Of a stretch of DNA of 64,000 nucleotides, positions 13,859 through 15,218 are shown one piece after another (within the stretch, counting starts at the first letter, position 1; every line of letters begins with the position of its first letter). The stretch is from the NCBI GenBank assembly GCA_002840435.1, contig PHAT01000001.1:718979-782978 (forward strand), read 5' to 3'. The notes beneath the pieces are model-generated. The model was not told where the DNA came from, ran no database searches, and saw only the letters and a list, made by a program, of their open reading frames with translations. The DNA is from Deltaproteobacteria bacterium HGW-Deltaproteobacteria-6. Its GTDB lineage: Bacteria; Desulfobacterota; Syntrophia; Syntrophales; Smithellaceae. Both the position numbers and the translations under genes were made by a program.

Positions 13859-15034
13859 CTATTTTACCGCTTTTTGCAGCGTCTTCGTCATATCTGTTTT
13901 TTCCCAGCGGTAGTCATCCATAAAGAATGTCCGAGGAATTTTGCGGTAAATTTTACCGTTGAGCAGGTCGAATTTTTCGATCATGCCTTCCGGCGTCAAA
14001 TCAAAATGATCTTCAATCATTTTTTCCAGTCTGTCGTCTGAGACCTTGCCTGTACCAAACGTATTGACATAAATAGAAAACGGGCAGGCAATACCGATGG
14101 CATAAGCCAGCTGAACTGCGCATTTAGAAGCAAGCCCCGCCGCCACAATATTTTTGGCGACATAACGGGCGCCAAAAGCCGCCGAACAATCCACTTTTTC
14201 AGGTGTCTTATTGACCACCGCTCCGCCGCCCAGCTGAGCGCCGGGGTATCCGCCGTAAAACTGCACGACCAGCTTGCGTCCGGTCACCCCGGAATCAGCC
14301 GCACTGCAGGAATTAATGGCATTCCATTCACCGGTGGGGTTGAACAAAAATTCCGTTTTTTTATCCACGCAATCCTTCAAAGCCTCAAAAGCGATTTTCC
14401 TGGCCCGGTCGCGCACCTTCAGACGATCGCCTTTGACAAAACGATAATCAATCGAGTTGGACATCAGCACTTTGGCTACGCGCAGGGGTTTGCCGGTTTT
14501 TGTGTCGTAATCAACCGATACCTGACCTTTTCCGTCCGGAGCGAAAATCGGGTCCTGGCAATATTCAAAGGCCCGCATCATTTTGTTGACCAGAACATAA
14601 GGCAGAGGAAGGAGTTCCGGCGTTTCGTCGCAGGCAAAACCATACATGATGCCCTGATCCCCGGCGCCGATTTCCTGATCCTTGTTCAGAAGACAGCTTG
14701 TTCCCTGATTGATGTCGTCCGACTGGGGAATAATCGCATTGAGCACACCCATTAAATGTCCGTTCAATCCGACTGCGGCATGATTATAACCTAGTTCAAT
14801 TACGGAATCCCTAGCTATTTTATCAATATCAACATAAACTCTGGTTCTGACTTCACCCCCGACCAGACATATTCCCTTGCCCAGAAAAACCTCAATGCCG
14901 CAATGCGGCATATTCGCCAGCGTAAGCTTTTGTTTTTTTTCTTCATCAAGGATAGCCGCAATTACATTGGCCGCAATAATATCCGCAACCAGATCAGGAT
15001 GCCCCACTTTGACACTTTCCGATGAAATTTGCAT
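13859..15034 (-). CDS. metK: S-adenosylmethionine synthetase
   Basis: 391 residues, bacterial MetK length. Makes SAM from methionine and ATP. The N-terminal ESVKVGHPD corresponds to the ESVSEGHPDK active-site motif, GAGDQGIMYGFACDET is the ATP-binding hexapeptide region (GAGDQG), and GGGAVVNKTPEKVDCSAAFGARYVAKN corresponds in blocks to the GGGAFSGKDPSKVDRSAAY motif. The sequence is divergent from enterobacterial MetK, with ATN replaced and several lineage-specific loops. The gene is monocistronic and sits behind a SAM-II-like riboswitch and terminator, so product feedback on its own transcription is expected. Confidence 0.9.
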   Translation of the reverse strand: MQISSESVKVGHPDLVADIIAANVIAAILDEEKKQKLTLANMPHCGIEVFLGKGICLVGGEVRTRVYVDIDKIARDSVIELGYNHAAVGLNGHLMGVLNAIIPQSDDINQGTSCLLNKDQEIGAGDQGIMYGFACDETPELLPLPYVLVNKMMRAFEYCQDPIFAPDGKGQVSVDYDTKTGKPLRVAKVLMSNSIDYRFVKGDRLKVRDRARKIAFEALKDCVDKKTEFLFNPTGEWNAINSCSAADSGVTGRKLVVQFYGGYPGAQLGGGAVVNKTPEKVDCSAAFGARYVAKNIVAAGLASKCAVQLAYAIGIACPFSIYVNTFGTGKVSDDRLEKMIEDHFDLTPEGMIEKFDLLNGKIYRKIPRTFFMDDYRWEKTDMTKTLQKAVK

Positions 15035-15082
15035 AATATTTCTCCTTACAGTTTTTTGTGCGGGCTTTCAGTGACTAAAACT

Positions 15083-15109
15083 AAAAAAACCCGCGCCAAA
15101 GCACGGGTT
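15083..15109 (-). terminator. Regulatory intrinsic terminator in the metK leader
   Basis: On the minus strand AACCCGTGC pairs with GCGCGGGTT around a TTTG loop and is followed by seven T. It lies between the riboswitch and the metK start, about 50 bases before the ATG. Its 5' arm GTGCTTTGG can instead pair over nine bases (one G-U) with CTAAAGCAC at the 3' edge of the aptamer, giving a mutually exclusive antiterminator. Confidence 0.85.
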
Positions 15110-15130
15110 CAATTGATTCATTGATTTTCA

Positions 15131-15180
15131 GTGCTTTAGCACATTTATAGAGCGGAGCAATTTACTTTAAATCACCGCTT
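15131..15180 (-). ncRNA. SAM-II-like riboswitch upstream of metK
   Basis: On the minus strand the leader carries, in order, a 5-bp stem AGCGG/CCGCT enclosing TGATTTAA and TTGC, then ATAAATGT and GCTAAA. Each of these blocks and their order and spacing match the SAM-II aptamer (H-type pseudoknot) as I remember it. The gene downstream encodes SAM synthetase, and a terminator with an alternative pairing follows. Together this supports a SAM-responsive OFF switch acting on transcription: bound SAM would hold the 3' GCTAAA segment in the pseudoknot and let the terminator form. I did not assign every base pair of the second helix. Confidence 0.82.
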
Positions 15181-15189
15181 TCTTGCTTC

Positions 15190-15218
15190 ATACCATATAA
15201 ATGCATAAAATCAAGCAA
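15190..15218 (-). promoter_or_regulatory. Probable metK promoter
   Basis: On the minus strand TTGCTT (15218-15213) and TGGTAT (15195-15190) are 17 bases apart. A start about seven bases further would place the riboswitch at the very 5' end of the transcript. Confidence 0.45.

Follow-up and report, generated by a model that had tools for sequence, protein, structure and literature searches.

SAM-II riboswitches are described as most common in the Alpha-, Beta-, and Gammaproteobacteria (PMC2704228), and the majority of them are reported to act on transcription (PMC6061858). In the SAM-II/SAM_alpha family (RF00521), an aptamer is followed by a terminator and the promoter lies just 5' of P1; the element of S. 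meliloti metZ is a predicted OFF switch of this kind (PMC9373788, PMC1273637), expected to act by termination (PMC9373788). The text of a survey of about 200 proteobacterial genomes places SAM_alpha in Rhizobiales and Rhodobacterales only, with metY as the core target, and the targets named there (metA, metX, metY, metC, hom, and metW) do not include metK (PMC4239095). A long-loop form, RF01726, has its listed members in Bacteroidetes and in marine sequences (PMC2864571), and 44 tandem SAM-II riboswitches have been found (PMC9481103). A literature search, with most subscription journals outside its scope, returned no report of a metK-linked SAM-II riboswitch in Deltaproteobacteria; with the same scope, its sole mention of SAM-II riboswitches together with Deltaproteobacteria concerns another motif.

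The locus studied here lies on the minus strand of the window, by which we mean the whole 64,000-nucleotide stretch of DNA analyzed, in a genome of the Smithellaceae, a family placed in the Syntrophales, Thermodesulfobacteriota. In a leader at 15184-15083, about 50 nt 5' of metK, a SAM-II-type aptamer is joined to an antiterminator of 12 bp and to an intrinsic terminator (Table 1). The order of aptamer and terminator is that of SAM_alpha, as is the probable position of the promoter, and the P1 stem, long L1, and AUUGC...UGCUAAA pseudoknot are held in common with long-loop SAM-II. Judging from sequence comparison, we put the probability at roughly 94% that this leader works as an OFF switch of the SAM-II kind, one that senses SAM, acts on transcription, and exerts feedback on metK. 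The preliminary description of the locus had seen the interest in a deltaproteobacterial version coupled to a terminator. The coupling is not the point of interest: SAM-II riboswitches are often or mostly transcriptional (PMC2258182, PMC6061858, PMC9373788, PMC1273637), and such coupling is ordinary for them. What is notable is the lineage, metK as the main target, the divergence of most copies to below the Rfam cut-offs, and the occurrence of arrays.

Table 1. Features of the metK leader and its surroundings, in window coordinates
Feature	Position	Strand	Basis
SAM-II-type aptamer	15130..15184	-	RF01726 20.4 bits full length; model R1 81.7 bits (R1 includes this sequence)
P1 5' strand AGCGG	15175..15179	-	sequence, pair counts
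P1 3' strand CCGCT	15151..15155	-	sequence, pair counts
Block TGATTTAA	15174-15167	-	sequence
L1 third strand UGAUUUA	15168..15174	-	A9, U11, U12 equivalents invariant 68/68
P2b 5' strand UUGC (TTGC in DNA), pseudoknot	15157..15160	-	every position identical 68/68
Block ATAAATGT	15148-15141	-	sequence
P2b 3' strand GCUAAA, presumed SAM-adenine partner U at 15138	15135..15140	-	conservation in 68 aptamers
Probable P2a 5' strand AGU	15164..15166	-	end-pair counts; register chosen by analyst
Probable P2a 3' strand ACU	15130..15132	-	end-pair counts; register chosen by analyst
Antiterminator 5' strand GUGCUAAAGCAC, overlapping P2	15131..15142	-	12-bp helix, -17.4 kcal/mol alone
Antiterminator 3' strand GUGCUUUGGCGC, overlapping terminator	15093..15104	-	folding, tail/arm pairing
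Intrinsic terminator hairpin	15087..15110	-	terminator scan; -15.6 kcal/mol
Terminator U-tract, seven T	15083..15089	-	sequence
Probable -35 box TTGATT, 16-nt spacer to -10	15209..15214	-	read from upstream sequences
Probable -10 box TATGAA	15187..15192	-	inferred by eye from upstream sequences
metK ribosome-binding site AAGGAG	15042..15047	-	sequence
metK, methionine adenosyltransferase, 391 aa, divergent type	13859..15034	-	TIGR01034; three S-AdoMet_synt Pfam domains

Four blocks, TGATTTAA, TTGC, ATAAATGT, and GCTAAA, had been described in that order around a 5-bp stem, and all four were seen so arranged on the minus strand; P1 is 5 bp long and closes a 19-nt loop. Pairing of CTAAAGCAC with GTGCTTTGG, likewise proposed earlier for the 3' edge of the aptamer, is possible and grows to 12 bp (15142-15131 with 15104-15093). 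Both the P1 stem and the P2 pseudoknot between UUGC of L1 and GCUAAA of the 3' edge, as in SAM-II, are present in the window. A linker of 19 nt joins aptamer and terminator, and the 3' end of the aptamer lies about 80 nt 5' of the metK ribosome-binding site, with the terminator in between. The fold of the 102-nt leader was better than those of all 200 dinucleotide shuffles (z = -3.6), and that of the aptamer alone was only moderately better than its shuffles (z = -1.9; 6 of 200 equally good). A simple terminator scan over 1.7 kb found 2 sites against 1.9 in shuffled sequence, so the terminator pattern by itself proves nothing.

A protein search with the window MetK yielded 52 loci, the names of whose records include Smithellaceae, Syntrophaceae, Syntrophus, Deltaproteobacteria, and the like, the closest being Syntrophaceae bacterium UBA4059, with a MetK 98% identical. 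By a first text motif, the element was found 124 to 240 nt 5' of metK in 26 of 51 examined loci, each time with a terminator, and by a looser motif in 28 of 52; a first-motif match at L035 was discarded as chance. One of the 24 loci without the looser motif has merely 3 upstream bases and the rest are relatives at 68 to 74% identity, which suggests that the element is often missing in paralogs of metK or in remoter relatives. Two covariance models were built, R1 from 18 metK leaders, among them the window's and one further copy from the same genome, and R2 from 75 matches, the source sequences of both coming from the Syntrophales alone. R1 (E ≤ 0.01) matched 85 of 155 genomes of the order (53 of the 92 of good quality) with 101 copies, and R2 (E ≤ 0.001) matched 84 with 108 copies; since these searches used stricter filters and scored few candidates per genome, weak copies may be missed. 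Among 395 genomes sampled from the phylum, each model matched 13, all 13 inside the order. The 26 orthologous loci and the 85 genomes thus back the earlier proposal of a SAM-II-type aptamer and terminator before metK in a deltaproteobacterial lineage, the Syntrophales, and show a SAM-II branch that recurs across one order of anaerobic bacteria. The R1 matches at L117 and L146 have no GCUAAA tail and look false; with R2 in place of R1, genome G046 loses its sole match and G042 its doubtful one. Three of 124 pooled leaders fell outside our core pattern.

Conservation was assessed in 68 aptamers, obtained from 102 model-aligned matches of which 70 were distinct and two of these, without the GCUAAA tail, were dropped. 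The outer pair of P1 covaries, being A-U in 59, G-C in 5, U-G in 1, and unpaired in 3, and the other four pairs do not vary, counts that may lean because P1, unlike P2, was in the model. In P2b, the C-G and G-C pairs occur in 68/68 and the two U-A pairs in 67/68 and 68/68, with no compensatory change; accordingly, neither the inner P1 pairs nor P2b give covariation support. Within GCUAAA, the G, the C, and the last two A residues are found in 68/68 and the U and first A in 67/68. The inner L1 pair (columns 16-41) is paired in 51 of 68. For P2a there are two tail types (35 and 27 rows), in registers that we chose and that lie one base apart, and 6 of the 68 rows fit neither. In the chosen registers, the P2a end pair covaries in both types: in the first (columns 25-76) it is G-C in 18, G-U in 7, A-U in 4, and unpaired in 3 of 32 rows, a result reached by 94 of 5,000 shuffles; in the second it is G-C in 14, A-U in 7, G-U in 1, and unpaired in 5 of 27, reached by 14 of 5,000. 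With pocket positions numbered after PDB 2QWY, those presumed to correspond to U11, U12, U20, U21, U44, and A45 to A47 are each kept in 67 or 68 of the 68 aptamers. U44, which presumably contacts the adenine of SAM in SAM-II, is matched by U in 67 of 68.

At gathering thresholds, no Rfam family was found in the whole window. A relaxed scan of 231 bases aligned RF01726 end to end at 15126-15184 with 20.4 bits, against a gathering cut-off of 44 bits; no non-standard pair was marked in this alignment, nor in that of the C2 copy, which scored 30.1 bits. RF00521, with a cut-off of 36 bits, and SAM-V were absent from the 35 lines of that scan (E up to 10), which leaves the window site below both SAM-II cut-offs. 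Over the whole genome of origin, RF01726 gave ten places at E up to 10; those ranked 1 (C2:477102-477160, E = 0.0016), 2 (the window site, E = 0.4), and 8 (C3:87542-87602) all coincide with R1 sites, and of the best two, rank 1 only has a small E value. RF00521 gave 13 weak matches in the same genome, with 150 of 746 candidates scored; one is the proximal C2 copy (13.9 bits), and the window site is not among them.

Across the order, RF01726 reached E ≤ 0.01 in 2 of 155 genomes, both places being R2 sites, and passed its cut-off in none; in the 395 genomes from the phylum it had no match at E ≤ 0.001, and a Bacteroides control was over the cut-off. RF00521 found ten places at E ≤ 0.01 in 9 of the 155 genomes. 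Two exceed its cut-off, G154:C37:54701-54776 (43.6 bits, E = 2.5e-8) and G072:C1:523130-523206 (41.6 bits, E = 6.4e-8), and both are also R1 and R2 sites; three weaker places (in G090, G088, and G023) are R2 sites, and 14 control genomes gave no match. The window site and most sites of the family are without an RF00521 match, but two members pass its cut-off and tie the leader family to canonical SAM-II. That RF00521 coincides at these places with a model whose source sequences include no known SAM-II member strengthens the SAM-II reading, which we regard as very probable. The preliminary description had looked to RF00521 and the related SAM-V model: SAM-V is not listed for the window and the window site alone falls short, the support from RF00521 coming from the family. 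The leader is therefore best regarded, by its sequence, as a probable variant of SAM-II, with the fold and conserved nucleotides of that class and with relatives, though not itself, over an Rfam cut-off. Because the cut-offs are passed in 2 (RF00521) and 0 (RF01726) of 155 genomes, though 84 to 85 carry the element, Rfam-based surveys largely miss this branch. Five further RF00521 places at E ≤ 0.01 lie below the cut-off and are neither R1 nor R2 sites (G060:C76:6301-6377, G073:C6:14630-14708, G137:C6:332-406, G072:C1:2843127-2843204, and G065:C157:1707-1766); these may be additional copies of SAM-II or chance matches.

Transcription probably starts a few bases before P1, in agreement with the start site described for SAM-II (PMC1273637), which the TTGA spacing matches. 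The putative -35 and -10 boxes agree with 8 of 12 consensus letters by our reading, and a promoter scan did not list the TTGATT/TATGAA promoter. Of 88 first-in-array aptamers, 76 have a TTGA 28 to 45 nt 5' of P1 (70 of 82 if distinct upstream sequences are counted), compared with 11.5% in shuffled upstream sequences, and in 50 of those 76 it stands at 36 to 37 nt.

Of 93 distinct leaders, 92 have a hairpin below -8 kcal/mol with a T-run after it; among shuffled downstream sequences, 5 of 279 do. This count left out the middle aptamer of the C3 array, and the sole miss (L106_1) is a script artefact, in which the pattern caught the third C3 aptamer and the terminator lay past the cut. For 65 distinct pairs, the mean energy of pairing between the aptamer tail and its own terminator arm was -13.9 kcal/mol. 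When tails were re-dealt, relatedness being ignored, the mean was -11.5 kcal/mol (standard deviation [SD], 0.26), and with the last five bases shuffled it was -10.2 kcal/mol (SD, 0.29); 0 of 2,000 and 0 of 300 trials, respectively, reached -13.9. In the table of tail against terminator classes, the best fits do not all lie on the diagonal: GCAC tails pair most strongly with terminators of their own class (-17.0), for GGCC tails the same holds by a bare margin (-12.0), and GCGC tails give -18.7 with GTGC-class terminators versus -15.2 with their own. The antiterminator was weak (above -8 kcal/mol) in 6 of 92 leaders. The roughly 100 copies, most with an antiterminator fitted to their own terminator, are material for the study of aptamer and expression-platform co-evolution.

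At low SAM, in the mechanism that we propose, a transcript begun a few bases 5' of P1 would pair the aptamer 3' edge GUGCUAAAGCAC with the emerging GUGCUUUGGCGC, no terminator would form, and polymerase would enter metK. With ample SAM, the ligand would be held in the P1/P2 pseudoknot and triplex, locking GCUAAA into P2; the antiterminator would then be unavailable and the terminator would halt transcription 5' of metK. Folds of the growing window transcript make the antiterminator best from a length of 86, and the terminator is complete only at 95 to 98. With GCUAAAGCACU blocked, the terminator form is the best fold, at -25.0, versus -29.7 for the free antiterminator form. The folding tool placed the terminator form first for 102 nt (-30.2, with a small GUGC/GCAC hairpin), and our own script placed the antiterminator form first for 108 nt (-29.7). 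The end states being nearly equal in energy, the predicted direction rests on the order of folding, and energies alone do not prove it. The sequence CCCGC, complementary to the 3' arm of the terminator, occurs at 15064-15060, between terminator and metK, and in the same place in 19 of 27 leaders; it might keep that arm out of the terminator in read-through RNA.

Other readings of the leader were weighed against this evidence. A riboswitch with the SAM-II fold could sense a different methionine-cycle compound, for instance SAH or methionine: SAM is the predicted ligand here, small changes in a pocket can shift specificity, and small proteins with no family match follow some of the copies. We consider this very unlikely, given that the presumed pocket equivalents hardly vary among the 68 aptamers and that the commonest target is SAM synthetase. 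The terminator/antiterminator pair could also belong to a leader-peptide or ligand-independent attenuator, a reading to which the first-ranked line in the relaxed Rfam scan, Leu_leader (26.4 bits against a cut-off of 50, E = 0.0011), and a 9-codon frame starting at 15191 lend something. Mismatched pairs are numerous in that alignment, which is closest over the terminator; the frame begins within the presumed -10 box and is broken by single-base variation of the L1 loop among orthologs, and what is conserved in the leader is the aptamer core. Because the frame is not conserved, the leader-peptide reading is rejected, and the chance that we leave to attenuation of either sort is slimmer still.

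The slightest chance goes to a SAM-V riboswitch acting on translation. The leader aptamer has its pseudoknot and pocket in common with SAM-V, in which the tail pairs with the ribosome-binding site (PMC6061858); here a terminator and about 80 nt separate the two. SAM-V, a translational class, also has a P3 helix and is unmatched at the window site.

The product of the window metK scores 321 bits with TIGR01034 (cut-off, 309.4) and has three Pfam S-AdoMet_synt domains; the genome also encodes a canonical MetK (491.5 bits), 42% identical to it. A third MetK-like open frame (G000:C3:81680-82618, minus strand; 29% identity) lies about 3 kb from the canonical metK, and the bins JAKLDS, JANYAY, and CAIVQG each appear twice in the MetK search, pointing to several relatives with more than one MetK. 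Targets were read for 68 matches in 61 stretches, taken mostly from below the top 30 R1 matches. A MetK frame lies within 1.9 kb downstream in 47 of the 68, starting within 460 nt in 43 of these; three of the MetK-linked matches precede a single gene (L106). No MetK was found downstream in the other 21, among them two doubtful matches and one with only 110 bases left. SAM synthetase, the commonest target of the aptamer family, would itself be placed under SAM-II feedback. Among the other targets are small proteins for which no family was matched; against Pfam (two proteins), NCBIfam (eight), and PHROGs (four), orphan proteins gave weak lines, none near a cut-off. The frames downstream of the SAM-II-type leaders at L110, L135, and L140 encode small proteins with no NCBIfam match near cut-off, and the regulon may for this reason extend past methionine genes.

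Besides the window copy, the genome carries five more, in a tandem pair on C2 and a triple array on C3. The C2 pair (C2:477282-477106, minus strand; loci L061 and L069) runs SAM-II, terminator, SAM-II, terminator, like the known tandem SAM-II riboswitches with a terminator for each of two aptamers. It precedes an orphan 138-aa protein with no family match near cut-off. Of 51 family genomes, 8 have homologs of this protein, which stand behind such aptamers in 7 of the 8. In the C3 array (C3:87655-87401, minus strand; locus L106), three SAM-II-type aptamers lie 5' of the canonical metK. No terminator separates the first two, which stand back to back, and the single terminator arm downstream of them can pair with the 3' edges of both (-10.0 and -15.1 kcal/mol). 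G154:C37 has a similar back-to-back pair, in which the second aptamer is the one over the RF00521 cut-off; of the two tails there, only that of the second makes a good pairing with the terminator (-11.5, against -4.4 for the first). Back-to-back aptamers sharing one terminator, as in C3, are absent from the types with two aptamers and one platform (glycine and guanidine-II) in Table 1 of a published account (PMC9481103). Nine more pairs of R2 sites, no more than about 200 nt apart on the same strand, were found (G013:C252, G053:C17, G055:C198, G041:C52, G088:C34, G090:C3, G126:C43, G023:C18, and G039:C165), which, with those of C2, C3, and G154, brings the arrays in the order to twelve, spread over eleven genomes.

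More tentatively, and with somewhat less than even confidence, we suggest that the Syntrophales may have a separate SAM-II branch that has grown into a major SAM regulon there and of which a dual-aptamer form is part. In that form (C3:87655-87546), with two 3' edges and one terminator arm, termination before the canonical metK would need both aptamers to be SAM bound; if so, it would parallel, within SAM-II, the glycine switch with its two aptamers. Both the arrays and the orphan targets offer leads that can be tested. A CRISPR-like repeat array, as read by eye, also lies at a distance of about 1 kb from the C2 aptamers.
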